Assembly (NCBI RefSeq): GCF_013409065.1 | Contig: NZ_JACBZP010000001.1 | Coordinates: 310,001-374,000 of the forward strand | Length of the DNA: 64,000 nt | Origin: Spelaeicoccus albus | Lineage (GTDB): Bacteria; Actinomycetota; Actinomycetes; Actinomycetales; Brevibacteriaceae | Reading direction: 5' to 3' | Shown: positions 15,530 to 32,168 of the stretch, piece by piece | How the letters are laid out: the number at the start of each line of letters is the position of its first letter | Position numbering within the stretch: the stretch's first letter is position 1 | Notes under the pieces: generated by a model | The model's input: the letters and a program-made list of their open reading frames with translations, nothing else | Told to the model about the DNA's origin: nothing | Databases searched by the model: none | Translations under genes and position numbers: made by a program

Positions 15530-15660
15530 CCCCGACACGGCCCGCAAGTCACGGCCTGCAAGTCACGGCCGTTTCCCAGCCCGGTGTGCCGGCCCATCCC
15601 TACGGGCTTCCGGCACGCCGTCCGCAAGAGAAATATCCATCAACGAAGAGAGATAGACAC

Positions 15661-16452: not shown

Positions 16453-16543
16453 CCCTCCCATTCCCGCCCGTCCCTCCAGAGCTCTGTACTAATCGCATCT
16501 TCTGCGGCAGAGTTAAAACACGCATAGTGAAAGGTCAAACGCA

Positions 16544-18058
16544 ATGACGCAATATGTGGTAGCAATCGATCAGGGCACGACAAGCACGCGTGCCATCGTC
16601 TTCGATCATGCAGGCACCATCGTCTCCAGCGGCCAGATCGAGCACGAGCAGATCTTCCCGCACGCCGGCTGGGTTGAACACGACCCCATGGAGATCTGGC
16701 ACAACACTCGCCAAGTCATCGGCGAAGCCCTGTCCAAAGCGGACATCACCCGCCACAGCGTGGATGCCATCGGCATCACGAACCAGCGCGAAACGACGGT
16801 GGTCTGGGACAAGAACACCGGACAACCCGTGTACAACGCGATCGTGTGGCAGGATACCCGCACGCAGCCGATCGTCGATCGGCTGGCCAAGGTCGGCGGC
16901 CCGGAACGGTTCAAGCCCACTGTCGGCCTGCCGCTCGCCACGTATTTCGCGGGCACCAAGATCGTCTGGATCTTGGAAAACGTGGACGGGGCCCGGGAAA
17001 AAGCGGACGCCGGCGACCTGCTGTTCGGCACGACCGACTCGTGGGTCCTGTGGAACCTCACGGGCGGTGTCAACGGCGGCGTGCACGCCACCGACGTGAC
17101 GAACGCGTCGCGCACCATGTTCATGGATCTGAAGACCCTGCAATGGGACGACGAGATCCTGAAGACGTTCGGCGTGCCCAAATCGATGCTTCCGGAGATC
17201 AAGAGCTCGTCCGAAGTGTACGGCAACGCCGAGTCGTCGTCGCTGCTGCGCGAGGTGCCGATCGCCGGCATCCTCGGCGATCAACAGGCCGCCACGTTCG
17301 GACAGGCGGCGTTCGATCCGGGTGAGGCAAAGAACACGTACGGTACCGGTAACTTCGTCATCTTCAACACGGGCGAAGAGATCGTGCACTCCGAGAACGG
17401 CCTGCTCACCACGCTCGGGTACAAGCTCGGCGACGACAAGCCGCATTACGCATTGGAGGGTTCGATCGCCGTCACCGGCTCGCTCGTTCAGTGGCTGCGC
17501 GACAACCTCGGCCTCATCAAGTCGGCTCCGGAAGTCGAGGAGCTCGCCAAAACCGTCGACGACAACGGCGGCGCCTACTTTGTGCCGGCGTTCTCCGGCC
17601 TGTTCGCCCCGTACTGGCGCTCGGATGCGCGCGGCGCGCTGGTCGGAATGACCCGGTTCGTCAACAAGGGCCACATGGCCCGGGCCGCGCTCGAAGCCAC
17701 CGCGTTCCAGACGCGTGAGGTGCTGGACGCCGTGAACGCCGACTCGGGTGTGCCGCTGTCCGAACTCAAGGTCGACGGCGGCATGACCGGCAACGACCTG
17801 CTCATGCAGTTCCAGGCCGATGTGCTCGACGTCCCGGTCGTCCGGCCGGTCGTGTCCGAGACCACTGCTCTCGGCGCGGCGTACGCGGCAGGCTTGGCCG
17901 TCGGCTACTGGTCGGATCTGGACGAGCTCCGATCCAACTGGCAAGAAGACAGCCGCTGGACGCCGAACATCGACCCCGATGAACGCGATCGTCAGATCCG
18001 CAACTGGAAGAAGGCAGTGACGAAGACCTTTGGCTGGGTCGACGAGGACGTCCAGTAA
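16544..18058 (+). CDS. glpK: Glycerol kinase
   Basis: FGGY-family kinase, 504 residues, phosphorylates glycerol to sn-glycerol-3-phosphate with ATP. Motifs: the ATP phosphate loop [13 protein letters not shown] (residues 8-20), [20 protein letters not shown], the FGGY signature region [18 protein letters not shown] and [18 protein letters not shown]. The length is usual for GlpK. It lies between glpF and glpD2, with a ribosome site (AAAGG) ahead of ATG 16544. A 13-bp stem-loop follows it. Confidence 0.97.
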
Positions 18059-18091
18059 ACGGCGCCTGCAGTCCACTCGAGGTCAACCTAC

Positions 18092-18133
18092 GCGAGGGCG
18101 GCGTTCCAGGCACCCGCCGGACGCCGCCCTCGC
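18092..18133 (+). terminator. Stem-loop between glpK and glpD2
   Basis: GCGAGGGCGGCGT (18092-18104) pairs perfectly with 18121-18133 around a 16-base loop, 34 bases after the glpK stop and about 50 bases before glpD2. There is no U-tract, so it may be a terminator, an attenuator or an mRNA-stabilising structure that sets a lower level of glpD2. Confidence 0.6.
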
Positions 18134-18186
18134 CGGTCGGCAACGCCGAAATCGGCAGGCACCATCTACGTTCGTGAGGAGTATCC

Positions 18187-19956
18187 ATGAAGGCAGCAGC
18201 TCTCTCCCAGTCGTCGCGGTTGGAAGCCGTCGAGGCGCTCGGCAGTCGAGAATTCGACGTATTGGTGATCGGCGGCGGTGTGACAGGGGCCGGCACGGCG
18301 CTCGACGCTGCCAGCCGGGGCCTTTCGGTGGCGCTCGTCGAGGCCCGGGATTACGCGTCCGGCACGTCGTCGCGCGCCAGCAAGCTCATCCACGGCGGGC
18401 TGCGCTATTTGCAGATGCTCGACTTCAAGCTGGTGCGCGAGGCGCTGACCGAACGCGGCCGCCTGCTCACGGCCATCGCACCGCACTTGGTGCAGCCGGT
18501 TCCGTTCATTTACCCGTTCACGCACAAAGTCTGGGAACGGGGGTACATCGGCGCCGGGCTGATGCTCTACGACGGGCTCAGCTTTGCGCCCGGCGTCCAC
18601 CGCGGCGTCCCGCTGCACCGGCACTTGAGCCGGCGGAGCATGCAAAAGCTCTTTCCCGAAATGCGCGAGGACGCCGCCGTCGGCGGACTGCGCTACTACG
18701 ACGCCAAGGTCGACGATGCGCGGTTCGTCGCCACGCTGATCCGCACTGCCACGTCGCACGGCGCCGTCACGGCCAGCCGGATGCAGGCCACCGAGTATTT
18801 GACCGACCACGGCCATATCACCGGTGTCGTGGCCGACGACCTCGAATCCGGCCAAACCGTGCAGATCCGCGCCCGGCACGTCATCTCGGCCACCGGCGTG
18901 TGGACCGAAGCCACCGAGAACCTGCCCGGCTTCCCGGCCAGTCCGGACGCGGGCGCCTCGACGTCGCCCACCAGCCGCGGATTGAAGGTACGCGCGTCCA
19001 AGGGGATCCACATCGTGGTGCCGGGTGACCGGATCGTCGGCAATGCCGGCATGATCTTGAACACCGAGAAGAGCGTCTTGTTCATCATCCCGTGGGACGG
19101 CTACTGGGTGATCGGCACGACCGACACCGATTGGCAGCTGCCCAAGGCTCATCCGGTCGCGAACGCCACCGACATCGACTACCTGCTCGACCACGTCAAC
19201 GCCGTGCTGAAGAACCCGCTCACGCGCGACGACGTGATCGGCACGTACTCGGGCCTGCGACCGCTGTTGCAGCCCGTCAGCACCGACGCGCAAAGCACGG
19301 CAAAGGTGTCCCGCGAGCACACGGCCGCGACGCCCGCCCCCGGCCTGACCGCGATCGCCGGCGGCAAATTCACCACCTACCGCGTGATGGCCGAGGACGT
19401 CGTCGACCAAGCTCTCGGCCCGGAAGCGAAGGGCAATCCGTCGATCACCGCGAATCTTCCGATGCTCGGCGCCGAAGGGTTCAAGGTGCGGATGCGCCAA
19501 CGCGGCCGGATTGCCGCGAAGTACGGCTGGGAGATCGGCCGCGTCAACCACCTGCTGCGCCGTTACGGCGGTCTCATCGACGAGATCCTCGAGTTGATCG
19601 ACGCCGACCCGTCCCTTGGCGAGCCGCTCCCGGGCGCCGAGCAGTATCTGAAGGCCGAGGTCACCTATGCAGTCACGCACGAGGGGGCGCTGCATCTCGA
19701 GGACGTGCTGACCCGCCGCACCCGGCTGTCCTATGAGCAGCCCGAACGCGGACTTGCTGCTTCCGACACCATTGCCGATTTGATGGGCCGGGAGCTCGGC
19801 TGGTCGGATCAAGAACGCAACGACGAGATCGCCGCTTATCGGGCTCGCGTGGACGCCGAGCGGGCCGCCGAGCTCGAACCGGACGACGAGTCGGCGGCGG
19901 CAGTGCGTGCCCGCGCCGAGGAGATCATGCCGCCGGAGGGTTCATCCCTCGCCTGA
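18187..19956 (+). CDS. glpD2: Aerobic glycerol-3-phosphate dehydrogenase GlpD, copy 2
   Basis: Second 589-residue FAD-dependent glycerol-3-phosphate dehydrogenase, the same length as copy 1 and closely similar throughout (shared blocks include the FAD motif VIGGGVTGAGTALDA, SKLIHGGLRYLQMLDFK, IPWDGYWVIGTTDTDW and GGKFTTYRVMAEDVVD). It is probably a local duplicate or a fixed paralogue pair. GAGGAG ahead of ATG 18187 is a good ribosome site. Differences cluster in the first ~20 residues and in the C-terminal helical domain. Whether the copies differ in quinone partner or regulation cannot be judged here. Confidence 0.95.
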   Translation: MKAAALSQSSRLEAVEALGSREFDVLVIGGGVTGAGTALDAASRGLSVALVEARDYASGTSSRASKLIHGGLRYLQMLDFKLVREALTERGRLLTAIAPHLVQPVPFIYPFTHKVWERGYIGAGLMLYDGLSFAPGVHRGVPLHRHLSRRSMQKLFPEMREDAAVGGLRYYDAKVDDARFVATLIRTATSHGAVTASRMQATEYLTDHGHITGVVADDLESGQTVQIRARHVISATGVWTEATENLPGFPASPDAGASTSPTSRGLKVRASKGIHIVVPGDRIVGNAGMILNTEKSVLFIIPWDGYWVIGTTDTDWQLPKAHPVANATDIDYLLDHVNAVLKNPLTRDDVIGTYSGLRPLLQPVSTDAQSTAKVSREHTAATPAPGLTAIAGGKFTTYRVMAEDVVDQALGPEAKGNPSITANLPMLGAEGFKVRMRQRGRIAAKYGWEIGRVNHLLRRYGGLIDEILELIDADPSLGEPLPGAEQYLKAEVTYAVTHEGALHLEDVLTRRTRLSYEQPERGLAASDTIADLMGRELGWSDQERNDEIAAYRARVDAERAAELEPDDESAAAVRARAEEIMPPEGSSLA

Positions 19957-20170
19957 CATTGTGAGTTGCCACCCGGCTTCGCCATATCGGTCGCGGCGCC
20001 GGACGTCGCGCTGCCATTGGACATTGTCCGTCCGGTGGTGCTGACCGTCGTACTCGATGCCGATCTTCAACCGGCGGTATGCCAGGTCGGGTTGAAAGAG
20101 CTTTTTGATGACTGACCACGGATCCGGGCCGCGACCCGACCGCTGCAACACAGCGCAAAAACAAATCGTG
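19942..20170 (-). pseudogene. Remnant of a DUF559 (Vsr-like endonuclease domain) protein
   Basis: In this frame the sequence FQPDLAYRRLKIGIEYDGQHHRTD...QWQRDVRRRDRYGEAGWQL matches the consensus of the C-terminal DUF559/Vsr-like nuclease domain common in actinobacterial AbiEi-like proteins (the P-D-L-A-Y, E-Y-D-G and H-H-R blocks). The N-terminal part of such a protein is absent and the domain stops early, inside the glpD2 3' end. It is therefore a decayed fragment sitting in the gap between two operons of opposite direction. The left boundary is estimated. Confidence 0.5.
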
Positions 20171-20242
20171 CGCGGCCCCACTGTGGACGGCCGCAGCGCG
20201 GACACCGCCTGTGGACGCAAGTCCACCCCGCGCCGCGCGGCG

Positions 20243-20713
20243 TCAGCAGCCTTGGTCGGCCGCCTCGTACTCCCCGATGGCCGCGACCTTTTCGGCCGAC
20301 GAACTAGCCGGATCGAACGTGTACCCGAGCCATTCGGAGGCGAGTTTACGGGCCAGTTCGAGGCCGACGACGCGCTGGCCCATACACAGCACTTGAGCGT
20401 TGTTGGACTTGATGGCACGTTCTACCGAGTATCCGTCGTGCGCCGTCACGGCGCGGATGCCGGGAACCTTGTTGGCGCTGATGGCCACCCCCAGGCCGGT
20501 GCCGCACACGAGCAGTGCCCGGTCGACCTCGCCGTCGGCCACCTTGCGGGCCGCAGCCACGGCCACATGCGGATAGGCGGTGTGGGACTCGGAGTCCACG
20601 CCGACGTCCACGACTTCACCGACCCGCGGGTCCGCCTCGAGATCGTGCTTGAGCGCTTCTTTGTAGTCGTAGCCGGCGTCGTCCGACCCGACAACTATTC
20701 GTAGATCACTCAT
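20243..20713 (-). CDS. RpiB/LacAB-family sugar-phosphate isomerase (ribose- or tetrulose-phosphate isomerase)
   Basis: A 156-residue isomerase of the RpiB/LacA/LacB family. Seen: [18 protein letters not shown] at the N-terminus, [24 protein letters not shown] containing the active-site cysteine and loop, and [13 protein letters not shown]. Start ATG 20713 has AAGGA upstream. RpiB interconverts ribose- and ribulose-5-phosphate, but homologues beside a DerK-type kinase act on D-erythrulose-4-phosphate in the mycobacterial tetritol pathway (DerI) and as EryI in Brucella. Because it follows a DerK-like gene by 23 bp, a tetrulose-phosphate role is favoured. It ends the minus-strand operon. Confidence 0.82.
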
Positions 20714-20736
20714 TGGAAGTCCTTTCTCATCGATGA

Positions 20737-22476
20737 TCAGTCGTCCGGCCACGCGGCGTCCGCCGCCGCCGTCACGACCATACCCAGCGAGGTGGCACCC
20801 GCGTCGGGAGTTCCGACACTCTTATCGGCAAGCGGCCGCGCGCGCCCGAGCTTCGGCGTCAGGTCGGCTGTCTGCCGGGCCGCCGTTGTCGCGGCTTCCG
20901 CGGCCCGCCGCCAGGCAACTCCGGACGCCGAGTCGGACGACGATCCGGCCGCCTCCTTTAACGAGTCTACGAACGGCACGAGGGCGTCGACAAGAGTCTT
21001 GTCGCCGACCTGGGCCTTGCCGAGATTCCGGACAGCGTCCAACGCGGCCTCCGCGGCGGCGGCCAAATCGGCCGTTTCGCACCGGTGATCGCCGGGCAGC
21101 CGGGCGCCGAACGCGGCAAGCGCGGCGCCCCACAGCACCCCGGACGTGCCCCCGGCTTCGGTTGCCCACGCATCGCCGGCGATGCGCAACGCATCGGCCG
21201 GTCCGGCGTCCTTTTCTGCGGCGGCCCGGGCAGTGCGGAGGCAAGCGTCGATGCCCTTGACCATGCCGCGGCCGTGATCGCCGTCGCCGGCGACGGCATC
21301 GATCCTGCCGAGTTCGTCCTCGTGGTCGTGCAGGACATCGCCGACGGCCTCCAGAGCGGCAAGGATCCGCCCGGTGGTCCGGCGTCCCTGCTCACCGGCC
21401 GGTTCGATGCCGGCCATCGGGTCGAGCTCGGCCGGATCGATCGCGGCGGCGCGCTCGCCCTCGGACACCTCCCAACCGGCAGCCGGGGCCTTTGTATAGG
21501 CCGGCGAGAGCGCGGGTGCGGACCACCAGCGTTCAAGATCGTCGTCCAGGAAGACGAGGGTGAGCGAACAGCCGGCCATGTCCAGGCTGGTCACGAGTTC
21601 CCCGACCTCCGGCGCGGCCACATCGAGCCCTTCATCGCGCAGCAACGCGGCAACAGCCTTCCACACGATGAACAGTTCTTCGTACTTGGTGCGGCCCAGA
21701 CCGTTGAGAATGGCGGTGACGCGCGTTCCGGCGCCGGCCGGCCGTTCGGCAAGCACGCCGTCGACCAGCAGCCGCGCAAGTTCATCGGCGGTCATGGATT
21801 CGTGCTCGGAAATGCCCGGTTCGCCGTGGATGCCGAGGCCGAGCGCGACCTTGCCGTCCGGCACCGTGAACAACGGCTCGTCGGCGCCGGGCATGGTGCA
21901 TCCGTCGAAGGCGACGCCGAGGCTGCGGGTTGCTGCGTTTGCGCGGGTGGCCGCGTCCGCCACGCCGTCCAGGTCGAGTCCTTCTTCCGCGGCCGCGGAG
22001 GCGATCTTGAAGACCGCGAAGTCGCCGGCGATCCCGCGGCGTTTGCCTTCCTCGTCGGCCGATGCGCTGGCGACGTCGTCCGTGACCAGCACCGTCCGGG
22101 CCGGGATTCCGGCGTCGTTCAACCGTTGTTCGGCAAGGCCGAAGTTCATCACGTCGCCGGCGTAGTTGCCGTAGGTCAACAGCACGCCGCCGCCGGCGTC
22201 GGCGGCGCGGGCCACCGTGACGGCCTGCCGGGTGGACGGTGAGGTGAAGACGTTGCCCACGACTGCGCCGTCGGCGAATCCGGGTCCGACGACGCCGCAA
22301 AACGCCGGGTAGTGACCCGACCCGCCGCCGACCACGACGGCGACCTTGCCCTTTCGCGGCCGCGGTGCCCGTACGACGCCGCCCGGCACTGCGCGCACCA
22401 GGTCGTCGTGGGCATCGACGAATCCGGCCAGCATGTCATCGGCGAATTTCGCGGGATCGTTGTAGAGCGTGGTCAT
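20737..22476 (-). CDS. Single-chain DhaK-DhaL kinase, DerK-like (dihydroxyacetone or D-erythrulose kinase)
   Basis: A 579-residue ATP-dependent ketose kinase: DhaK domain (residues 1-330) with [10 protein letters not shown] and the substrate-binding histidine in [10 protein letters not shown], and DhaL domain (about 365-579) with [12 protein letters not shown], whose aspartates bind Mg-ATP, and GGTSGVLWG. Fusion of both domains marks the ATP-dependent type, unlike the PTS-type DhaK and DhaL encoded separately at 28.6 kb. DerK of Mycobacterium smegmatis has this architecture and phosphorylates D-erythrulose. It is coupled by ATGA to the aldolase gene upstream and followed by the RpiB-like isomerase. 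Confidence 0.88.
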
Positions 22477-23156
22477 GATTGCCTCTTCCTCTCGTCATCG
22501 TGTGCGGTTCCGGGTTGTCCGTAGGTGGCGAACTTCGCGGCAGCGGCATCCAGCTCGCCGTCCGGCAGCAGCGCCGGCGTGCCGGCGGCCGCGGCGATCA
22601 GGTACACGCGGCACGCCCACTCGAGTTGCGTGACGCGTTCGTATGCGCCGGCCAGGTCGCCGCCGACGGCGATGCTTCCGTGATTGGCCATCAACGCGGC
22701 CGTCCGCCCGGTCATGGCACGGCGCACGTTCTCGGCAAGCGCGTCGGTGCCGTACGTGGCGTAATCGGCCACTCGGACCGATCCGCCGCACAGCGCCAGC
22801 ACGTAGTGGACGGCCGGCACTTCGCGGGTCAGGGTCGACACGGCAGTGGCGTAGGTGGCGTGGGTGTGCACTATTGCGCCGACCGGTTCGCGGTCGGCGT
22901 CGGCGTACAGGCCGAGGTGGAGCGGTACTTCGCTGGTGGGGGCCATCCGCCCGCCGACCTGCTCGCCGTCCAGTGTCAATATCGGCAGGTCTTCGGGCGT
23001 CAACGCGTCGTACGGGACCCCCGTGGGCGTGACCACTATCTGGTCGCCGACTCGCGCCGACACATTGCCGGACGTCGCGACGACGAGCCCGTCGCGCAGC
23101 ATCCGCCGGGCAGTGGCGAGCACCTGCGTGCGGACGTCGTCCGGCGGCCCCGTCAT
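22473..23156 (-). CDS. Class II aldolase (L-fuculose-phosphate aldolase-like)
   Basis: A 227-residue zinc-dependent aldolase/epimerase of the AraD/FucA family. HTHATYATAVS supplies two zinc histidines (around residue 90), MANHGSIAVG the third, and TSGNVSAR near residue 28 binds the substrate phosphate. Such enzymes split ketose-1-phosphates into dihydroxyacetone phosphate and an aldehyde. A longer reading frame extends to 23426, but ATG 23156 overlaps the kinase stop as ATGA and matches the family length. Its stop overlaps the DerK-like start in the same way, so kinase, aldolase and DerK are translated as a chain. The substrate is unknown. Confidence 0.88.
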   Translation of the reverse strand: MTGPPDDVRTQVLATARRMLRDGLVVATSGNVSARVGDQIVVTPTGVPYDALTPEDLPILTLDGEQVGGRMAPTSEVPLHLGLYADADREPVGAIVHTHATYATAVSTLTREVPAVHYVLALCGGSVRVADYATYGTDALAENVRRAMTGRTAALMANHGSIAVGGDLAGAYERVTQLEWACRVYLIAAAAGTPALLPDGELDAAAAKFATYGQPGTAHDDERKRQS

Positions 23157-24610
23157 CGCCCGCTCCACAATGCGCGGGCCGAGTCGAGCTGCTCGCGGTA
23201 TCCGGTATAGCCGCGATCGTAGAATTCGACGCGCTGCGGATCCGGGGTGAAGACGCGGCGGCGCTGCTTCCATTCCGCTCTGTCGACCGGGTCCCCGAGA
23301 GCGTCCCAGGCGGCCATGGCGGCTCCCCGGGCGCCCACGCCGGTTTCGATGGGCAGGTGGATCTCGCGGCCGACGACGTCGGCGAAGATCTGGGCCCATT
23401 CGGCCGATTTCATTCCGCCGCCGCACGCGGACAACTCGCCGTCCAGGCCTCCGGCCTCAAGGCAGTGCCGTGCCGCGAAGGCGATGCCTTCGCACAACGC
23501 CCGGGCGATATCGGCGGGGTTGGTGTCAAGGGAGAGCCCGCTCAGCTGGCCGCGCGCATTCGGGTCGACGAATGGCGCCCGCTCCCCCGACGGCGACAGG
23601 AACGACAGGGCGTTGACGCCATTGGCGCCGGGCGGCGACTGGTCGAGCAGCTCGCCGACGTGCCAGGCGCGCCGTCCGAAGAGGTTCATCAGCCAGTCGA
23701 TGCTGGCCGTGCCGACCATGGCGGGCATGACGCGCATGTATTCGTCCGGATGCGGCGTGGCCAGCCACATGCCGGCCGGTTCACCGTCCGGGTCGATGAC
23801 CGGGTCGTCGCTGAGCACCTCACAGCCGAGCGTGGTGCCGACCACGAGAGTACCGTCGCCCGGCTCGGTGACCCCCGATCCGAACGCGCACGCGGGCAGG
23901 TCGAACGGGCCGGCCGTCAGCGGAGTGCCGATCGGAAGACCGAGCTGGTCGGCGCCGCTCCGGCTGAGTCGGAAGACGTGTCCGGGCGGGGCCGGGTCGG
24001 CGAGCAGACGCCGATAGTCGCCGATGCCGCACGCTTCGAGAGCGTCGAGCGAGTACTCACGGGTGCGGACGTTCAAGAACGGCAGCGAGGCGTCGGACGC
24101 GTCGACCGTGATTTCACCGGTCAGGGCTCCGACGACGGCGTCGACGCAATAACCGGCGACCGCCGCCCGGTCCAAGTTCTCGGGTTCGTGATCGGCCATC
24201 CATTTCAACAGCGGAGCGGCACATCCCGGGAAGATGCCCGATCCCGTGCTGCGGTACACCCGGTGGGCGACCGAGTCGCGGCCGCCGCGGCTCCAATCGG
24301 ACACGATCCGGGAGCCGCGCCCGTCCATCCAGGAGATCGGATTGCGCACCGGGCGGCCGTCGGCATCGCGCAGCCACAGTCCGTCACCTTGGCCCGTGAT
24401 GGCGATGCCTTCGATGTCGTCGGCGGACGCGGCGACTTCGCGGACGACGTATCGCACCGTGGCGAGGACGTCGTCGAAGTCCTGCTCGACCATGCCGCCG
24501 GGCATTTGGTTCACGACCGATTCCTTGGTCGCGGTGAGAAGGGAGTCGCCGCTACGGGTGATCAGTGACGCCTTCGTCAACGACGTGCCGATATCGACGC
24601 CGATGATCAT
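23153..24610 (-). CDS. FGGY-family carbohydrate kinase, erythritol kinase (EryA)-like
   Basis: A 485-residue FGGY kinase with the phosphate loop GVDIGTSLTKASLI and the sequence GMVEQDF, followed by AITGQGDGLWL, which recalls EryA-type erythritol kinases, as do the ASIDWL block and SPSGERAPFVDPNARGQLSGL. The FGGY signature lies in SACGGGMKSAEWAQIFADV. It would phosphorylate a small polyol or ketose. LsrK-, xylulokinase- or apulose kinase-like functions are alternatives. The open frame extends to 24742; ATG 24610 gives the family start. It is coupled to the class II aldolase by ATGA, suggesting that the aldolase uses the kinase product or a derivative. Confidence 0.82.
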   Translation of the reverse strand: MIIGVDIGTSLTKASLITRSGDSLLTATKESVVNQMPGGMVEQDFDDVLATVRYVVREVAASADDIEGIAITGQGDGLWLRDADGRPVRNPISWMDGRGSRIVSDWSRGGRDSVAHRVYRSTGSGIFPGCAAPLLKWMADHEPENLDRAAVAGYCVDAVVGALTGEITVDASDASLPFLNVRTREYSLDALEACGIGDYRRLLADPAPPGHVFRLSRSGADQLGLPIGTPLTAGPFDLPACAFGSGVTEPGDGTLVVGTTLGCEVLSDDPVIDPDGEPAGMWLATPHPDEYMRVMPAMVGTASIDWLMNLFGRRAWHVGELLDQSPPGANGVNALSFLSPSGERAPFVDPNARGQLSGLSLDTNPADIARALCEGIAFAARHCLEAGGLDGELSACGGGMKSAEWAQIFADVVGREIHLPIETGVGARGAAMAAWDALGDPVDRAEWKQRRRVFTPDPQRVEFYDRGYTGYREQLDSARALWSGR

Positions 24611-24647
24611 CGTGTTCTTCTTTCTGTCATGGCCGTCGCAGTCCGGG

Positions 24648-25697
24648 TCACTGCCTGTCGTACACTGCCGGGTTGGCGACGAAACGCGGCCGTTCGCCGT
24701 CCAGATAGGCGGCGATCTCGCCGGCCACGATGTCTGCGGCACGGTGCGCGGTCTGCCGCGTGGCGCCGGCCAGGTGCGGGGTCGTGATCACGTTCGGCGC
24801 GTCGAACAGCGGCCACGACGGGCCCGGCGGTTCTTCGTCGTAGACGTCGAGCGCGACGGCGCCGAGTTGGCCCGACCGCAACATGTCGGGCAACGGCGAG
24901 TAGTCGAGCAGGCCGCCGCGGGCCATGTTGATCAGTATCGCGCCGGATGGAAGGAGCGACAGGTTGTCGCGGTTCAGCAGATGGTGGGTCTCGTCGGTCA
25001 GGCGGGCGTGGATGGACACGACGAACGACCGGCGCAGCAGATCGTCGAGTGCGGCCACGGCTTCGACGCCGTCCGCGGCGAGTTTCTCGGCGTCCGTGTA
25101 CGGATCGTAGGCCAGCACGTGCGCGCCGAATGCCCGCAGCACACCCGCCACGATCTTGCCGATGGCTCCGTATCCGACAAGCCCGATGGTGGTGCCGTCG
25201 ACTTCGATGCCGGCATTGTCGTAGGCATAATAGTCGCCGCGCCAGGTGCCGCTTTTCAGCTCGGCGTCGGCCACCGTGATGCGGCGCATGGCATCGAGGA
25301 TGAGCCCGATGGCGAACTCGGCGGCTCCCGTCGCATTGCGGCCCGGCGCAAAGGTCACGACGACGCCGTGGCGCGTGGCGGCCTCCAAGTCCACGTTGAC
25401 GGGGCCGCCGCGGCTGACGCTGACCAACTTGAGGTTCGGGCAGGCGGTGAAGACCTCGTCGGTCAACGGCGACATCTGCGTGGCCACGATCTCGGCATCG
25501 CCTATCGCTTCAATGGCCTCGGCGACGGTGCCGCTCGCCTCGTTGACGGTGTCGACCGGGCCGAACGGCACGTTCGGCCATTCCAGCTTCGCCCGGTCGA
25601 TCGTCAATTGGTGCCGGCCGGCCGTCGCCCGCTCGATGGCGTCGACGAACAGGTCCGGATCGATGAAGTGGTCCCCCACCGCGAGTATCTTCCGCAT
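24648..25697 (-). CDS. NAD-dependent D-2-hydroxyacid dehydrogenase family protein
   Basis: A 349-residue dehydrogenase of the D-isomer 2-hydroxyacid family. The Rossmann motif GLVGYGAIGKIVA, the arginine in SVSRGGPVNVD, the glutamate in YDEEPPGPS and the histidine in TPHLAGAT form the usual substrate-binding and catalytic set. It is longer than typical because of an N-terminal domain of about 150 residues. Ribosome site AAAGG precedes ATG 25697; the open frame to 26336 is antisense drift over the HAD gene region. In this operon it may oxidise or reduce an acid or ketose intermediate, which is inferred only. Confidence 0.82.
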   Translation of the reverse strand: MRKILAVGDHFIDPDLFVDAIERATAGRHQLTIDRAKLEWPNVPFGPVDTVNEASGTVAEAIEAIGDAEIVATQMSPLTDEVFTACPNLKLVSVSRGGPVNVDLEAATRHGVVVTFAPGRNATGAAEFAIGLILDAMRRITVADAELKSGTWRGDYYAYDNAGIEVDGTTIGLVGYGAIGKIVAGVLRAFGAHVLAYDPYTDAEKLAADGVEAVAALDDLLRRSFVVSIHARLTDETHHLLNRDNLSLLPSGAILINMARGGLLDYSPLPDMLRSGQLGAVALDVYDEEPPGPSWPLFDAPNVITTPHLAGATRQTAHRAADIVAGEIAAYLDGERPRFVANPAVYDRQ

Positions 25698-25717
25698 CGG
25701 GCTCTCGCCTTTCTTCT

Positions 25718-26428
25718 TCAGTAGTCGGTCTCGGGCCGGCCCAAGGCTTCCAGCAGGATCCGGCGAATATCGGCATGGTCGGCCGCTACGGACGCCGCGA
25801 GCGCCAGAGCGTCGGGCGCCGGCGCGTAGACCGGGTTCGGGATGGCGACGACAGTCATGTCGGCGGCCGCGGCCGCCCGCAGTCCATTGCTGGAATCCTC
25901 GACGGCCAGGCAGGCTCGCGGATCCACGCCGAGCCGGCTCGCGGCTTCCCGGTAGACGTCGGGTTGCGGTTTGCCGCGCGGCACTTCGGCACTGGAGACC
26001 GTTGCGGTGAACCGTTTCGTCAAGCCGTGATGGGCCAGCACCGCATCGATGACACGGCGGGTCGCCGACGAGGCCATGGCGATCGGCACGAGGTCGCTGA
26101 CGTCCTCGACAAGCGTGCGGGCCCCGTCCAGCAGCTCGATCCGGCCGTTGTCGAGCGCTTCGAGCATGCCGTCGACGACAATGCGCTCGGTTTCCGCGGG
26201 GGACTCGGCGCCGCCGGCGAAGTCCGTCAAGTACTGCGACCATTCCGGGGCGCTCATTCCCTGGCAGTCCGTGGTCTGGCGGCGGGTCCAGTCGGCACTG
26301 CGATCCGCGGCAAAGGCGGCCCACATCTCTTCCCACAGATGTTCGCTTTCGACTATGACGCCGTCCATATCGAATACGACGGCGCGAAAGCCGGCCGGAC
26401 GGATGCTTCCACCTCCGGATGCGGTCAT
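25718..26428 (-). CDS. HAD-superfamily phosphatase / beta-phosphoglucomutase-like
   Basis: A 236-residue subfamily IA HAD hydrolase: motif I VFDMDGVIVESE, motif II in MASSATRR, lysine motif III in RGKPQPDVY and motif IV in AVEDSSNGLRAA. The cap domain lies between residues 30 and 95. Homologues dephosphorylate small sugar or polyol phosphates or mutate phosphoglucose; neither can be chosen here. First gene of the six-gene minus-strand operon, with GAGG seven bases before ATG 26428. Divergent from the DeoR regulator, so the 137-bp gap must hold the operon promoter and operator. Confidence 0.83.
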   Translation of the reverse strand: MTASGGGSIRPAGFRAVVFDMDGVIVESEHLWEEMWAAFAADRSADWTRRQTTDCQGMSAPEWSQYLTDFAGGAESPAETERIVVDGMLEALDNGRIELLDGARTLVEDVSDLVPIAMASSATRRVIDAVLAHHGLTKRFTATVSSAEVPRGKPQPDVYREAASRLGVDPRACLAVEDSSNGLRAAAAADMTVVAIPNPVYAPAPDALALAASVAADHADIRRILLEALGRPETDY

Positions 26429-26434
26429 GGGCAA

Positions 26435-26565
26435 ACCTCCCTGGCGCCGGGCTTTGCCCAGCTTGGTCTCAATCTACCGTACGTAATGATATTTATACCA
26501 TGATTTTTGCGATATTCGGGTCGGTCGGATGTACATGAGCAACCTCCTCGCGGCACACTGTACGC
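26435..26565. promoter_or_regulatory. Divergent promoter region, DeoR regulator / catabolic operon
   Basis: The gap contains the only strongly AT-rich stretch nearby (about 26475-26515, with TAATGATATTTATACCATG), which is where overlapping promoters and a DeoR operator would be expected. The 5-bp motif ATGAT occurs twice in it. No exact -35/-10 pair is claimed. Confidence 0.4.
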
Positions 26566-27366
26566 ATGACGACGAAGAAGCGCAGCCCCCGCGAGGTACG
26601 GCAGCGGCGGATCATCGACCACGTCCTGACCGCCGGATTCGCGTCGACGGCGGAACTGACGGAGCTGACCGGCGCCAGCACCATGACGACGCACCGCGAT
26701 ATCGACGAGCTCGCCCATCGCGGCATTCTGCGCAAATTCCACGGCGGCGTCTCGGCCAGGCCGTCGACGGTGTTCGAGAGCAGTTCGGACTTCCGCCTGC
26801 ACAGCCAGCCCGAGGCCAAGGAAAGCCTTGCCGACGTGGCGCTCGGCATGGTCGAACCGGGCATGTCCGTTTTGCTCGACGACTCCACGACCGGCCTGGC
26901 GCTTGCCCGCCGATTGCACGAGGTCGGCCCCCTGACGGTTGTCACGAATTACCGCCTGGCCATCGAGGTCCTCCGCGAGGACGAGGACATCCGCCTGATC
27001 TCCCTCGGCGGCGAATACTCACGCACGCACGACTCCTTCATCGGCCTTCCCAGCCAAGCCTCCCTGTCGGCGCTCTCCGTCGATATCGCGTTCCAATCCA
27101 CGTCTGCCATGACGGCGCACATGGCCTTCCACCAGGAACAAGAAATCATCATGATGAAGCGGGCCATGCTTGAAACGGCGGCGACAAAGGTCTTGATGAT
27201 GGACTCGTCCAAAGTCGGTCGCACTGCGCTGCACAGGTTTGTGCCGACAAGTGCTTTCGACACGATCATCGTGACCGACGACGCTCCGGCGAACCTGCTC
27301 GACGTGTTGCGCGAGGAAACCACAGTGGCGCTGGCACCGGCGGCGCAATCGGACCCGGAGCCGTGA
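26566..27366 (+). CDS. DeoR-family transcriptional regulator of the adjacent catabolic operon
   Basis: A 266-residue DeoR-type repressor with an N-terminal helix-turn-helix (about residues 12-62; STAELTELTGASTMTTHRDIDELAHRG is the recognition region) and a C-terminal phosphosugar sensor domain (LLDDSTTGLALARRL, TNYRLAIEVL, SLGGEYSR, MMDSSKVG). Family members are released from DNA by phosphorylated sugars. It is divergent from the HAD gene, so it probably represses the HAD-to-RpiB operon and itself. It may also influence the aquaporin-dha genes that start 180 bp downstream on the same strand. Confidence 0.87.
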   Translation: MTTKKRSPREVRQRRIIDHVLTAGFASTAELTELTGASTMTTHRDIDELAHRGILRKFHGGVSARPSTVFESSSDFRLHSQPEAKESLADVALGMVEPGMSVLLDDSTTGLALARRLHEVGPLTVVTNYRLAIEVLREDEDIRLISLGGEYSRTHDSFIGLPSQASLSALSVDIAFQSTSAMTAHMAFHQEQEIIMMKRAMLETAATKVLMMDSSKVGRTALHRFVPTSAFDTIIVTDDAPANLLDVLREETTVALAPAAQSDPEP

Positions 27367-27545
27367 CGACGACGCACCGGATCCACCACGTTCATTGGTA
27401 CTTATTCCGCACAACTTGATAATTTTCCCGCCGAAACCGTCCAATTCATCCGTGCGGCGCATTTCGTTGCCACACCCTCCGAGCGGGGCTAGCATGAGAT
27501 TATTCTGCAAGTCAAATCGCAGGTGTCCAGTCTAGGAGCTTGGCA

Positions 27546-28601
27546 ATGAGCGATGTTTCAGCGTTGAGAACGACTCTTCGTCACGGCAGTGGACTCAAGA
27601 GATTGAACGGAACGTGGGGCGAGTGTCTTGCCGAATTCCTCGGCACGTTCGTCCTGCTGGCTATCGGCGACGGATCGGTGGCAATGACGGTGGCCGGGTT
27701 GCCCGGATCCGGACGTACCCAAGGGGCCACAACCATTTTCCTCGGCCCCAGTGACTGGCTGATCATCGCCTGGGGCTGGGCGTTCGCCGTCGCCTTCGGC
27801 GTCTATGTCGCCGGCGGCGTCTCGGGCGCCCACATCAATCCGGCCGTCACCTTGGCGTTTGCAGTGCGCCGGAAGTTCCCGTGGAAAAAGGTCGGCCCGT
27901 ACATCGTGGCGCAGGTCGTCGGCGCGTTCGTCGGTGCCGCGGTCGTCTACATGACCTACCACCAGGCCATCGATGCCTACAACAAGGCGGCGCACGTGGC
28001 CTCCCGCAGCGATCCGGGCGGCTACGTGACCTTCTCCATCTTTGCGACGTTCCCGGCACCGTATTTCAACGGCGGCTGGACCGGCCCGCTCATCGACCAG
28101 ATAGTGGGCACGGGGTTCCTCGTCATGTTCATCGCGGCAGTCATCGACATGCGCAATACGGCGGTCAAGGCCAATATGGGTCCGCTGATCATCGGCTTCA
28201 CCGTCGCCGCGGTCGGAATGACATACGGCGCGAACGCCGGATACGCCATCAACCCGGCCCGTGACTTCGGCCCGCGCGTTTTCGCCTGGCTCGAAGGATG
28301 GGGCAATGTGGCGATGCCGGGGACCGTGCACGGCGCCGGCGTGGACTACAGCTGGTACTTCTGGATACCCATAGTGGGGCCGATCATCGGCGGCATCATC
28401 GGTATCGTCCTGTACGACTTCTTCGTCGGCGACGTTTTGCATTCACGCCAGCTGAACGTCACCCCTGCCGGCCCGGCCACGGCGGAATTCGTCGACGAGG
28501 CACGGGAGACGGGCGCCGACCGGACCGATGCGCCGGGTCGCGGTGCCCACGCGGCTGACGAGAAAGCGGATGACGGCCCGTCGGCATCCGATGAGGAATA
28601 G
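27546..28601 (+). CDS. Aquaporin / glycerol facilitator with acidic C-terminal tail
   Basis: MIP-family channel of 351 residues, second in the window. Both NPA boxes are seen (HINPAVTLAF, INPARDFGPRVF), again with the aspartate of aquaglyceroporins. It differs from GlpF at 15661 by a long loop before helix 4 and a hydrophilic, Asp/Glu/Ala-rich tail of about 50 residues. AGGAG at 27534-27538 fixes ATG 27546 rather than the upstream TTG. It precedes dhaK by 24 bp, so it probably admits dihydroxyacetone, glycerol or a related small polyol for the DhaKLM system. Confidence 0.9.
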   Translation: MSDVSALRTTLRHGSGLKRLNGTWGECLAEFLGTFVLLAIGDGSVAMTVAGLPGSGRTQGATTIFLGPSDWLIIAWGWAFAVAFGVYVAGGVSGAHINPAVTLAFAVRRKFPWKKVGPYIVAQVVGAFVGAAVVYMTYHQAIDAYNKAAHVASRSDPGGYVTFSIFATFPAPYFNGGWTGPLIDQIVGTGFLVMFIAAVIDMRNTAVKANMGPLIIGFTVAAVGMTYGANAGYAINPARDFGPRVFAWLEGWGNVAMPGTVHGAGVDYSWYFWIPIVGPIIGGIIGIVLYDFFVGDVLHSRQLNVTPAGPATAEFVDEARETGADRTDAPGRGAHAADEKADDGPSASDEE

Positions 28602-28625
28602 CGCAAGCGATCCGGGAGGTACACA

Positions 28626-29624
28626 GTGAAGAAACTCATCAACGATCCCGACACCGTCGTCGCGGACGCGTTGAAAGGCATCGATGCCGCGCATCCGGAG
28701 CTCACCGTCGATTACGAGAACCGGCTCGTGCTCCGGACGCCGGCGGCCACCGACGGCAAGGTCGGGCTCGTCTCGGGAGGCGGCAGCGGACACGAGCCCC
28801 TGCACGGCGGCTTCGTCGGCAAAGGCATGCTGGACGCCGCATGCGCCGGCGAGATCTTCACGTCGCCGACACCCGACCAGATGACCGCCGCCACCAAAGC
28901 GGTGGACGGCGGCGCCGGCGTCCTGCATATCGTGAAGAACTATACCGGCGACGTGATGAATTTCGAGATGGCCGCCGAACTCGTGGCGGCCGAGACCGGC
29001 ACTGCCGTCGAGTCGGTGGTGACGAATGACGACGTCGCGGTGCAGGATTCGCTGTTCACGGCCGGACGACGCGGGGTCGGCGTCACGGTGTTCGTCGAAA
29101 AGATCGCCGGCGCGGCCGCCGACGAGGGTCGCGACTTGCCGGCCGTGGCCGACATGGCGCGGCGGGTGGCCGACTCGGGCAGGTCCATGGGCGTGGCACT
29201 GACCAGCTGCGTCGTGCCGTCGGCCGGCAAACCGACGTTCGACCTGCCGGACGACGAGATCGAGGTCGGCATCGGCATCCACGGCGAACCCGGCCGGCAC
29301 CGCGAACCGATCCGACCGGCCCGGGACATTGCGGCGAGCCTCGTCGAGCCGATCCTTGCCGACCGCGATTTCACCGGCGCCCCCGCCATCGTCATGATGA
29401 ACGGCATGGGCGCCACCCCCTTGCTGGAGCTTTACCTCATGTACGGCGAGGTCAAGGCCCTGCTCGACAAGGCCGGAATCGACGTGGCGCGGAACTTGGT
29501 CGGCAATTACATCACGTCATTGGACATGGCCGGGTGCTCGCTGACGGTACTCGGCGCAACCGACGAGATGATCCGGCTGTGGGATGCTCCAGTCAATACG
29601 CCGGGGTTACGCTGGGGTACCTGA
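28626..29624 (+). CDS. dhaK: PTS-dependent dihydroxyacetone kinase, substrate-binding subunit DhaK
   Basis: A 332-residue subunit that binds dihydroxyacetone covalently through a histidine and presents it to DhaL. Seen: GGGSGHEPLHGGFVG, IVKNYTGDVMNFEMA, and the hemiaminal-forming histidine in GIGIHGEPG. It starts at GTG 28626 after GGGAGG. Separate DhaK and DhaL followed by DhaM defines the phosphotransferase-driven enzyme rather than the ATP-dependent kinase. Second gene of the aquaporin-dhaK-dhaL-dhaM operon. Confidence 0.95.
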   Translation: MKKLINDPDTVVADALKGIDAAHPELTVDYENRLVLRTPAATDGKVGLVSGGGSGHEPLHGGFVGKGMLDAACAGEIFTSPTPDQMTAATKAVDGGAGVLHIVKNYTGDVMNFEMAAELVAAETGTAVESVVTNDDVAVQDSLFTAGRRGVGVTVFVEKIAGAAADEGRDLPAVADMARRVADSGRSMGVALTSCVVPSAGKPTFDLPDDEIEVGIGIHGEPGRHREPIRPARDIAASLVEPILADRDFTGAPAIVMMNGMGATPLLELYLMYGEVKALLDKAGIDVARNLVGNYITSLDMAGCSLTVLGATDEMIRLWDAPVNTPGLRWGT

Positions 29625-29645
29625 ACCTGCGAAAGGGGTACGCAA

Positions 29646-30281
29646 GTGGCTGCCGACACGCTGTCCGTCCGCGAGTTGACCGATTGGATGACCAGATTCG
29701 CCGACAGCGTGGCTGCCCGGCGAGAGTATTTGACCGATCTCGACTCCGCCATCGGCGACGCCGACCACGGCACGAATATGACCCGCGGCATGCAAGCGGT
29801 CACCAGCAAGCTTGAGTCCGACCCTTCCGAGACGATCGACGCCTTGTTCCGCGCCGTCGGGATGGCGCTGGTCAGCAGCGTCGGCGGGGCCAGCGGGCCG
29901 TTGTACGGTACGTTCTTCCTCCGGTTCGGCGGGGCGGCCGCCGGCGCGGCGACTCTCGACGTCGGCGCTCTCGGCACCTGTCTGCGCGCGGGGTTGGACG
30001 GCGTGATCGCTCGCGGCAAGGCCGAGCTCGGCGACAAGACGATGCTTGACGCCATGATCCCGGCCGTCGACGCGTTCGACGGCGCCGCGGATGACTTGCT
30101 CGCCGCGGTGACCGCCGCGCGCGATGCGGCAGCCACCGGGCGCGACGCCACCGAGCCGTTGACCGCCCGTAAGGGCAGGGCCAGCTATCTGGGTGATCGC
30201 AGTGTCGGCCATGTCGACCCCGGAGCCACGTCCACCGCGTTGCTGTTCGACGCGTTGGCCGCCGCCGTGGCCGGGGAGTAG
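29646..30281 (+). CDS. dhaL: PTS-dependent dihydroxyacetone kinase, ADP-binding subunit DhaL
   Basis: A 211-residue subunit carrying a permanently bound ADP that is rephosphorylated by DhaM and passes phosphate to DHA on DhaK. The nucleotide and magnesium site is in SAIGDADHGTNMTRGM, with conserved GGASGPLYGTFF and SVGHVDPGATS. It starts at GTG 29646 after AAAGGGG. It lies 21 bp after dhaK and 5 bp before dhaM. Confidence 0.94.
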   Translation: MAADTLSVRELTDWMTRFADSVAARREYLTDLDSAIGDADHGTNMTRGMQAVTSKLESDPSETIDALFRAVGMALVSSVGGASGPLYGTFFLRFGGAAAGAATLDVGALGTCLRAGLDGVIARGKAELGDKTMLDAMIPAVDAFDGAADDLLAAVTAARDAAATGRDATEPLTARKGRASYLGDRSVGHVDPGATSTALLFDALAAAVAGE

Positions 30282-30286
30282 CACCG

Positions 30287-31711
30287 GTGATAGGGATCGT
30301 CGTCGTCTCCCACAGCGCCGAGCTGGGCAATGCGGCGGTAGGTCTTGCCCTGCAAATGGCCGGCGACTCGCCGCCGCCGATCGAAGTCGCGGCCGGCTCG
30401 GGCGACGGGTTCGGCACCGAGGCCACGGCGATCGCCGATGCCATCGGTCGCGTCGATTCTCCGGACGGCGTGCTGGTGCTGATGGATCTCGGTTCGGCGG
30501 TGCTGAACGCCGAAATGGCCCTGGAGCTGTCGGCGCCGTCCGGGCCGGTCCGGCTCACCCCTGCCCCGCTGGTCGAGGGGCTTGTCGCGGCAGTGGTCAG
30601 CGCGGTCGGCGGCGCGGGCTTGGCCGCGGTGGATGCCGAGGCGCGGCGCGGGCTGATGGCCAAAGAACAGCATCTCGGCAACGAGCCGGGCTCCGGGCCC
30701 GGGGATGAGCCCGGGGACGAACTCAGGGACGGATCCGAATCGACGGCCCCGGACGCCGAGGCGGTGCAGGCGGACGTGCGCGTCACGGGCCGGGACGGGC
30801 TACACGCGCGGCCGGCGGCGGCGTTGGTGCGGGCCGTATCGAAATTTCGCGCGACCGTGACAGTGTCACGGCCCGGCGGACAGCCGGCGTCGGCGTCCAG
30901 CGTCAGCGCCCTGGCCGCGCTCGATGTGCGCTTGGGCGACGTGGTGCGCGTGAGCGCGACCGGTGACGACGCCCAGGCCGCCGTCGACGAGGTCGTCCGG
31001 CTTGCCGCACTGGACGACGGCCACGCCGGGGACGACGCTTCGGCGCAGGACAACGAATCGGGATCCGAGGTGGCGGTCGGACCGGCGGTGTTTCAGGACC
31101 CTCCCAACTGCGAACCACCTGCCGCGTTTGTCGAACGTGACGACCGTCCGGCCGAACGCGACAAGGTCAGCGAGGCCTCGCGGGTCGTCGCAGACGTGCT
31201 TGCCGAACGGGCCGGCAAGGTCGACGGCGATGTCAGCACCATCCTGCGGGCCGATGCGGCAATGGCCGGGGACCCCGCGTTCGTGCGAGCAGCGCATCAG
31301 TTCATCGATGCCGACGGAGTGAGCGCGCCGGCGGCAGTGTGGCGGGCCGCGCAAACGATCATCGACGCTCTCAGCCACGGCCGGCTTGCCGAACGAGCCG
31401 CCGACCTGGTCGGAGTGCGCGACAGGATGATCGCCGAGCTCGCCGGCCGGGACTGGCCCGGTCTGCCGACGCGGGACTTCCGGTTCGTGCTGATTGCCGA
31501 CGATCTGACGCCGGCGGACGCGGCCGAACTCGACGCTTCGACGTGCGCCGCAGTCGTCACTGTCCACGGCGGGCCGAAGTCGCATACGGCGATCATTGCG
31601 CGCGGGCTCGGCATCCCGGCCGTGTCGAACGCCGACCTACCGGACGGCCTCACGGAAGGCATGATGGTGCGGGTGGACGCGGGCCGTCAGAGCGTCACTC
31701 TCGCGGAGTGA
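30287..31711 (+). CDS. dhaM: Three-domain phosphotransferase DhaM (EIIA-HPr-EI N-domain)
   Basis: A 474-residue phosphoryl donor for DhaL. Domains: a mannose-type EIIA domain with His9 in VVSHSAELG (about residues 1-130), an acidic linker, an HPr domain with His173 in [13 protein letters not shown] (about 160-245), and the N-terminal part of enzyme I with His433 in [15 protein letters not shown]. The PEP-binding domain of enzyme I is missing, as in the Escherichia coli DhaM, which has the same order and nearly the same length. Start GTG 30287. The 3' end overlaps ispF by 17 bp on the other strand. Phosphate must come from general EI and HPr encoded elsewhere. Confidence 0.93.
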
Positions 31712-32168
31712 TCAACGCCGTTGCGATAGCAGCGATTCCTTCTCCCCTGCCGGTCAGGCCGAGGCCGTCGCTCGTTGTCGCGCTGACGCTCACCGGGGCA
31801 CCCGCGGCCGTGCTCATTGCCTGTTCGGCTTCCCGCCGCCGCGGTGCGAACTTGGGCCGGTTCCCGACGATTTGCACCGCAATATTGCCGATGTCGAAGC
31901 CCGCTTCCCGGGCGGCCGCGACCGCGTCGGCCAACAGGCGCGCCCCCGAGGCGCCGGCGACCTCCGGCCGGTCGGTGCCGCACAAGGAGCCGATGTCGCC
32001 GAGCCCGCCGGCCGACAGCACGGCGTCCACGCACGCGTGCGCTGCGACATCGGCGTCCGAATGTCCGGCGAGGCCCGTCTCCCCCGGCCATTCCAGCCCG
32101 GCCAGCCACAACGGACGACCGGCGGCAAAAGCATGGACGTCGGTGCCGATTCCAATGCGCGGAATCAC
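31695..32168 (-). CDS. ispF: 2-C-methyl-D-erythritol 2,4-cyclodiphosphate synthase
   Basis: A 157-residue MEP-pathway enzyme that cyclises CDP-methylerythritol phosphate to MEcPP for isoprenoid synthesis. The zinc site [23 protein letters not shown] and the [20 protein letters not shown]-terminal block are intact. It starts at GTG 32168, overlapping the ispD stop as GTGA. Its last 17 bases overlap the end of dhaM on the opposite strand. In many actinobacteria cysS follows directly; here it does not. Confidence 0.95.

Follow-up and report, generated by a model that had tools for sequence, protein, structure and literature searches.

A 64,000-nucleotide stretch of the Spelaeicoccus albus genome (contig NZ_JACBZP010000001.1, positions 310,001 to 374,000; termed the window) contains a six-gene operon that most probably serves the catabolism of tetritols, with or without pentitols, and represents a variant of the rhizobial polyol locus. 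We propose a phosphorylate-first polyol catabolic operon, in which a kinase would act first, a 2-hydroxyacid-dehydrogenase homologue (2HADH) would oxidize the phosphorylated polyol, and the product would leave through two exits; we assign this reading a probability of about 0.6. The reactions and substrates of the enzymes are proposed on the strength of the genes present, the conservation of modules, the similarity to the rhizobial locus and conserved residues.

The operon proved to be real and consists of six intact genes on the minus strand (20243-26428). The first encodes a HAD-IA phosphatase of the beta-PGM/HxpB-like type (25718..26428; Pfam/NCBIfam), a putative ketose-1-phosphate phosphatase. 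It is followed by the RbtA-like 2HADH (24648..25697; PF02826/PF00389), a candidate NAD(P)-dependent polyol-phosphate 2-dehydrogenase, by an EryA-like FGGY kinase (23153..24610; FGGY_N/FGGY_C), the predicted polyol kinase, and by a FucA1-like class II (FucA-type) aldolase (22473..23156; best match NF053831), which may cleave a ketose 1-phosphate to give dihydroxyacetone phosphate (DHAP). The last two genes encode a fused Dak1-Dak2 kinase (DAK, DerK-like; 20737..22476; PF02733/PF02734, NF011049) and an RpiB/LacAB-like isomerase (DerI/EryI-like; 20243..20713; TIGR02133), which would act as a D-erythrulose 4-kinase and a D-erythrulose-4-phosphate isomerase, respectively. An earlier note on this DNA had described the genes as tightly linked through three ATGA or short junctions. 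The tight linkage holds, with ATGA overlaps at the kinase/aldolase and aldolase/DAK junctions and gaps of 20, 37 and 23 nucleotides at the others; a third ATGA is absent. A DeoR-family regulator gene conserved with the cluster (26566..27366, plus strand; PF00455/PF08220) is divergent from the HAD gene across a 137-nucleotide gap, and presumably controls the operon. Upstream of the HAD gene only two short inverted repeats and no convincing DeoR operator were found, a promoter and terminator scan gave nothing useful at the operon start, and the window holds no RNA elements or tRNAs.

In the proposed pathway, the FGGY kinase would phosphorylate a tetritol, most likely erythritol and possibly D-threitol, and perhaps also a pentitol, for instance ribitol. 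The 2HADH would oxidize the carbon adjoining the phosphate to form a ketose 1-phosphate, namely D-erythrulose 1-phosphate, or D-ribulose 1-phosphate from ribitol. At one exit, the FucA-type aldolase would split this intermediate into DHAP and formaldehyde (C4) or glycolaldehyde (C5). At the other, the HAD phosphatase would strip the C1 phosphate, the DAK would re-phosphorylate D-erythrulose at C4 to yield D-erythrulose 4-phosphate, and the RpiB-like isomerase would convert the latter to erythrose 4-phosphate. In the available part of PMC10733421, EryC is given as D-erythrulose 1-phosphate 3-epimerase, and FucA and RhaD yield the 3R product, D-erythrulose 1-phosphate. As the EryC substrate and the FucA product are the same isomer, the product of an EryB-type oxidation would fit a FucA-type aldolase. 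The same part mentions a suggestion that cleavage of erythrulose 1-phosphate has a role in the breakdown of erythritol by P. pentosaceum and S. meliloti; the aldolase exit would bear on the erythrulose-1-phosphate/formaldehyde chemistry discussed there. Dephosphorylation would give D-erythrulose, the expected substrate of a DerK-type kinase, the product of which a DerI/EryI enzyme would isomerize to erythrose 4-phosphate. By our own derivation, the same geometry would lead from ribitol to D-ribulose 1-phosphate and from L-arabitol to L-xylulose 1-phosphate. The title of a 1968 work by Wawszkiewicz reportedly names L-erythrulose 1-phosphate in P. pentosaceum.

The operon was compared with 114 actinobacterial loci (designated by L numbers), for which neighborhoods of up to 20 kb around kinases were collected and reference proteins mapped by tblastn. 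Presence was called within 9 kb, with identity thresholds of 45% (2HADH) and 33% (GlpD), and loci at contig ends (e.g. L022 and L025) were scored as absences. The set draws on 9 of 9 other places in the phylum, 42 of 43 in the class, 24 of 66 in one genus, 19 of 38 and 26 of 32 in two families, two 2HADH matches from the order, 4 of the 7 loci of one further scan, and one plasmid. These source lists overlap and the picks were made by hand, mostly from the top; they amount to 106 genomes with 51 genus labels, some families being oversampled and the window itself excluded. The table omits L024 along with L014 and L015, two GlpD-bearing loci that turned up first, and no use was made of L030-L032.

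Across the 114 loci, a 2HADH is present in 101 and a DeoR homologue in 94; 77 hold a further, RbtB-like FGGY kinase (the second FGGY kinase, FGGYqsv) and 68 a histidine phosphatase, followed by HAD (40), RpiB (36), DAK (35), an RbtT-type MFS homologue (34), the FucA-type aldolase (21), an Mpt-like binding protein (12) and GlpD (8). The genes fall into modules: the FGGY kinase with the 2HADH; HAD with DAK and RpiB; and, elsewhere, the second FGGY kinase with the histidine phosphatase. A HAD gene accompanies DAK in 35/35 loci and RpiB does so in 34/35, while the histidine phosphatase occurs in 67 of the 77 loci with FGGYqsv. The same six-gene set, for which a neighborhood search had been advised in the earlier note, recurs in nine loci (L118-L122, L125, L128, L129 and L136), which exceeds a chance grouping, and L122 has the gene order of the window operon; all nine, however, come from one family and are not independent. 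The single MFS protein scanned is a member of the RbtT/DalT/CsbX family (TIGR00897, 544 bits; cut-off 375), and the Mpt-like binding protein of L018 is ~42% identical to its Sinorhizobium counterparts.

A few loci carry additional enzymes. In L018 (315-1676) and L081 (17317-18663), a gene that we take to be AraM/sn-glycerol-1-phosphate dehydrogenase-like lies beside the cluster. It might reduce aldolase-derived glycolaldehyde, since a haloarchaeal glycolaldehyde reductase carried the annotation sn-glycerol-1-phosphate dehydrogenase, as stated in the available part of PMC9700705. L014, on a plasmid of Shinella sp. WSC3-e, combines a close kinase homologue (46%) with GlpD, an FBA-type aldolase, thiamine pyrophosphate-dependent E1/E2 and lipoyl synthase, and we would guess at a methylated or deoxy polyol as its substrate. 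L015, on a plasmid of the haloarchaeon Halapricum desulfuricans, holds an EryA-like kinase, a FucA-type aldolase, GlpABC and GlpK together; here the logic of kinase, oxidoreductase and aldolase recurs, and GlpABC may be the oxidant.

Relatives of the 2HADH were also found on rhizobial plasmids, which link the operon to the erythritol/adonitol/L-arabitol locus of Sinorhizobium meliloti and S. fredii, with the order mptABCDE-eryA-rbtA-fucA1-eryB-lalA-rbtBC-eryC-eryR-tpiB-rpiB. In S. meliloti Ak57 (L178), 17 genes run in the order regulator, five ABC genes (the binding protein and the second permease being unannotated), kinase, 2HADH, FucA-type aldolase, GlpD, RhaD-like aldolase, second FGGY kinase, interrupted HAD gene, sugar isomerase at the EryC position, DeoR, triose-phosphate isomerase (TPI) and RpiB. 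The interrupted HAD gene, at the rbtC position (17605-18463), is unannotated, and a homologous stretch sits at the same place in S. fredii NGR234 (L183). The latter locus lies on plasmid pNGR234b, presumably the CP000874 of PMC3599248, and has the same order with the 2HADH present and the FucA-type aldolase absent. According to the available part of PMC3599248, NGR234 possesses every gene of the locus except fucA1. From the gene order and this absence we deduce, by elimination, that RbtA is the 2HADH and FucA1 the aldolase, and that lalA, rbtB and rbtC are the RhaD-like aldolase, the second kinase and the HAD gene. The same part of the source reports that S. meliloti EryA has a role with adonitol and L-arabitol too, that the lalA-rbtABC genes take part in the catabolism of these two polyols but not of erythritol, and that lalA-rbtB-rbtC constitutes a suboperon. 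The window 2HADH shares 42% and 44% identity with the rbtA-position proteins of Ak57 and NGR234, respectively, the window aldolase shares 42% with the FucA1-position protein of S. meliloti, and the window kinase 32% with its rhizobial EryA-position counterpart. RbtB groups with the actinobacterial FGGYqsv proteins in a quick tree (SH-aLRT 100).

A domain search of the six proteins found no SDR or MDR dehydrogenase, in agreement with the earlier claim that the usual polyol dehydrogenase is missing from the operon; a GlpD paralogue nevertheless lies just beyond RpiB, and the "missing" enzyme is probably the 2HADH homologue, acting on a phosphorylated polyol. Its fold is assigned by PF02826 (177 bits) and PF00389 (68 bits). 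The residue table covers 100 of the 103 2HADH matches plus the window protein, one match with an internal stop and two short ones having been dropped. The triad R260/E289/H308 is invariant in 104/104 rows (101 actinobacterial and 3 rhizobial), and so are R96, R120 and R232. These three arginines are specific to the clade, as an arginine occupies their positions in 0/5 paralogues from the same genome and 0/5 PDB chains compared by eye, two of which are one protein. In an AlphaFold2 model of moderate quality (mean pLDDT 75.8, five sequences), they sit in loops that directly follow strands, where residues of the cleft would be expected, and may bind the phosphate; the Foldseek matches listed for the model belong to the 2-hydroxyacid dehydrogenase superfamily, with TM-scores near 0.5. 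We know of no member of this superfamily with polyol-phosphate 2-dehydrogenase activity, and judge the odds about even that it includes a polyol-phosphate dehydrogenase. A broader version, to which we give slightly less than an even chance, is that the whole RbtA-type branch acts as an NAD(P)-dependent polyol-phosphate 2-dehydrogenase in which R96, R120 and R232 hold the phosphate. The branch would then be the redox center of a phosphorylate-oxidize-dephosphorylate-rephosphorylate logic for tetritols and pentitols, widespread in Actinomycetota, with exchangeable exits: phosphatase, DAK and RpiB; histidine phosphatase and RbtB-like kinase; or FucA-type aldolase. This offers a testable assignment for a gene family that recurs beside FGGY kinases in actinobacteria and is annotated just generically.

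The other five proteins match the families first named for them in Pfam and NCBIfam searches, where the informative models above their curated cut-offs are NF011049 for the DAK and TIGR02133 for the RpiB protein. The window kinase belongs, by its position in the tree, to the EryA group: it joins the rhizobial EryA-position kinases in one clade of 122 rows (SH-aLRT 100), outside which fall the RbtB-like, GlpK and other sampled FGGY rows. This tree of 139 rows (137 different) was a quick build with long-branch warnings. Assignments of the kinase to AI-2, fucose, rhamnose, glycerol or xylulose were rejected, all 12 NCBIfam matches being below cut-off. Among the catalytic residues aligned, D20, D22 and G23 of the HAD phosphatase are invariant in 38 rows and H217 of the DAK in 33 rows, while H97, H99 and H159 of the aldolase occur in 27/27 rows and E76 in 26/27. 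The RpiB protein scores 203.6 bits with TIGR02133 (cut-off 168.2), and higher with the D-erythrulose-4-phosphate isomerase model NF051858 (160.3 bits, below the cut-off of 240) than with the rpiB model TIGR01120 (116.8). The top NCBIfam match of the aldolase is the ribulose-1-phosphate aldolase NF053831 (222 bits, below the cut-off of 300), followed by L-fuculose-phosphate aldolase (190 bits; cut-off 264).

These results agree with the earlier suggestions of a C4/C5 substrate, of an EryA-like kinase, of a DAK/RpiB pair that would suit tetruloses, and of a class II aldolase that could release DHAP and a small aldehyde. The further suggestions of a sugar acid or of a branched sugar such as apiose, at which no dedicated search was aimed, found no support. 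In a sugar-acid operon for tetronates or pentonates, the 2HADH would oxidize or reduce C2 of the acid, the FGGY kinase would phosphorylate it, and the class II aldolase would decarboxylate or cleave the product. Such an operon would suit the usual chemistry of the 2HADH family, FGGY kinases include acid kinases, and 3-oxo-tetronate 4-phosphate decarboxylase is a weak match for the aldolase (106.8 bits). However, this score is far below the cut-off of 250 and below those for the ribulose-1-phosphate and fuculose-phosphate aldolases, no DUF1537 domain is present in the six proteins, related loci carry polyol transporters, and the nearest counterpart, that of S. meliloti, is a polyol locus, one left out of account in the earlier note. 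We consider a sugar acid quite improbable as the substrate, and a tetronate (Otn/Dtn) operon was set aside as first choice on the same grounds, the aldolase scoring far below the OtnC-type cut-off.

A second DAK-RpiB pair is found in the same genome (L200, 6481-11302, corresponding to C1:1660480-1665301), whose RpiB is 82% identical to that of the window. It is followed by a 3-hydroxyacyl-CoA-dehydrogenase-type gene, an SDR gene and a gene for a TPI-like protein with 38% identity over 204 residues to the TpiB-position protein of S. meliloti; no HAD or FGGY gene was seen beside the pair. L200 is possibly a second, dehydrogenase-first locus for erythrulose or tetritols. Its gene set, as we take it, resembles the tetritol set of M. 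smegmatis, which supports DAK-RpiB as a D-erythrulose module. Elsewhere in the genome, one RbtT/DalT/CsbX-type transporter scores above cut-off (469 bits) and adjoins a zinc-type alcohol dehydrogenase (L195, 9136-11619); the two are a probable pair for polyol uptake and oxidation. Both loci look like a dehydrogenase-first tetritol route and lend support to a mixed operon, in which the DAK and RpiB of the window would take free erythrulose or dihydroxyacetone from elsewhere, as in M. smegmatis, and the FGGY kinase, 2HADH and aldolase would serve a pentitol. The link of rhizobial rbtA to pentitols alone, in the available part of PMC3599248, points the same way. By contrast, every DAK gene in the 114 FGGY loci is accompanied by HAD, and all 35 DAK loci have a 2HADH or GlpD close to the kinase, a pattern suggestive of a single connected pathway; we rate a mixed operon as unlikely.

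Another alternative retains the polyol operon and overlaps with our reading in substrate, but assigns the oxidation of the polyol phosphate to a GlpD-type enzyme and leaves to the 2HADH a different step, with e.g. a by-product acid or a hydroxyacid derived from an aldehyde as its substrate. The candidate enzyme is GlpD2 (18187..19956, plus strand; PF01266/PF16901; NF008899 326.7 bits, cut-off 360), or another of its type. GlpD2 is the convergent neighbor just past RpiB, outside the operon, and a possible alternative oxidant; its closeness favors this alternative. EryB, a relative of GlpD, oxidizes erythritol phosphate, and enzymes of the 2HADH family normally need a carboxylate. Several findings speak both for this alternative and against our proposal: the rhizobial loci L178 and L183 keep the GlpD-type EryB in addition to the 2HADH, all 20 genomes in Table 2 of PMC3599248 (available part) contain EryB, and the 2HADH retains the full canonical triad. 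Further counts weigh against our proposal, as both 2HADH and GlpD occur in 3/101 loci and 8 of the 13 loci lacking 2HADH also lack GlpD (two of them cut by contig ends); three of these eight have nearby what we take to be an alcohol-dehydrogenase homologue. To the same side belong the second DAK-RpiB pair described above and the lack of a transporter within the operon (judged by eye on frames at 15000-32000). Moreover, fucA is unnecessary for all three polyols in S. meliloti, as far as the available part of PMC3599248 goes.

Against an oxidation by GlpD stands its presence in just 8 of the 114 actinobacterial loci, compared to 101 with the 2HADH. In most loci the 2HADH is the sole oxidoreductase by the reference set, which would miss other families; frame calls for L065, L068 and L070 gave no further gene inside these operons. 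On a Shinella plasmid, an ABC transporter, kinase, 2HADH and FucA-type aldolase are consecutive with no GlpD annotated in the 21 kb covered, although farther along, past a GntR gene and together with TRAP genes, come an SDR and an FAD-binding oxidoreductase. GlpD is found in 5/13 loci without 2HADH versus 3/101 with it (Fisher p 4e-4), and in 5/10 versus 3/50 after dereplication to 60 patterns (p 0.002). L139 and L174 combine HAD-DAK-RpiB-FGGY with GlpD and no 2HADH, and each of the 35 DAK loci has one oxidoreductase or the other. We rate GlpD as the oxidant a rather unlikely alternative to the 2HADH.

The surroundings of the operon are rich in glycerol and polyol genes. Neighboring genes were named by eye from the frames at 15000-32000, and the flanking genes checked against family models were the GlpD pair. 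Two 589-residue GlpD paralogues flank aquaporin-like and GlpK-like genes (13760-19956), and on the other side a second aquaporin-like gene is followed by DhaK/DhaL-like genes (27540-30281). This aquaporin/glycerol-facilitator-like channel (27540..28601, plus strand; reading frame, family by eye) is a possible entry for the polyol; no MptABCDE-like gene set was seen by eye among these frames.

At E <= 1e-80, kinase homologues were detected in 41/394 genomes of the class (own genome counted), 60/199 of one genus, and 33/150 and 29/60 of two families. The counts are 9/396 at 1e-50 across the phylum (own genome counted) and 5/396 for the 2HADH at 1e-95 in the order (own genome counted). Within the family of the window's genome, 4/60 genomes match the kinase at 1e-60, namely the window itself (100%) and three at 34-35% identity. 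By these counts, the cluster is patchy and may have reached this lineage by transfer. A scan of viral contigs with the 2HADH gave no relative. All 21 strains of Propionibacterium freudenreichii ferment erythritol and adonitol, and neither pathway was reconstructed, according to the available part of PMC4437456; the gene set could be a candidate for this route.

No paper listed in our literature searches, whose reach excluded much of the subscription literature, describes this route or an activity of this 2HADH. The aldolase has a characterized relative in the haloarchaeal ribulose-1-phosphate aldolase (Hx-FucA), which converts ketose 1-phosphate to DHAP and glycolaldehyde (PMC9700705, available part) and represents its best-scoring NCBIfam family, with the curated cut-off not reached; in the haloarchaeal pathway the ketose phosphate arises from nucleoside ribose rather than a polyol. 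The closest understood locus is that of Sinorhizobium, which shares with the operon the EryA-like kinase, the RbtA-position 2HADH, the FucA1-position aldolase and the RpiB-like isomerase, and with some other actinobacterial relatives also the Mpt-like transporter and the RbtB-like kinase with a phosphatase. Compared to this locus, the window operon has no MptABCDE set and no EryB inside, and lacks EryC, TpiB and RbtB/RbtC. It has HAD and DAK instead, which would offer a different way from ketose 1-phosphate to D-erythrulose 4-phosphate, and it differs in phosphatase type and gene order.

The erythritol pathway of Brucella and Rhizobium leguminosarum comprises EryA, EryB, EryC, EryH/TpiA2 and EryI/RpiB. 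As in that route, a polyol kinase would act first and an RpiB-like enzyme would end at erythrose 4-phosphate; the window differs in having the 2HADH (or GlpD2 next door) for EryB, a phosphatase and DAK for EryC/EryH, and an added aldolase. No EryC or EryH (TpiA2) family member is among the six genes, a TPI-like gene being found elsewhere in the genome (L200). In M. smegmatis, which uses DthD/EltD, DerK/LerK, LerI and DerI, the free polyol is oxidized first and the tetritol kinase belongs to the DAK family. The window operon matches it in the families of the DAK and of the putative DerI-type isomerase, which would end at erythrose 4-phosphate, but adds a kinase for the polyol and has its oxidoreductase from a different family. 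The earlier statement that the gene set differs from both routes is thus upheld, and the operon suggests a third route from erythritol to erythrose 4-phosphate. The available part of PMC12780249 gives two known pathways for sugar alcohols with four carbons, one alpha-proteobacterial and one from M. smegmatis; the window set fits neither, combining a kinase like the former with a DAK-RpiB pair like the latter.

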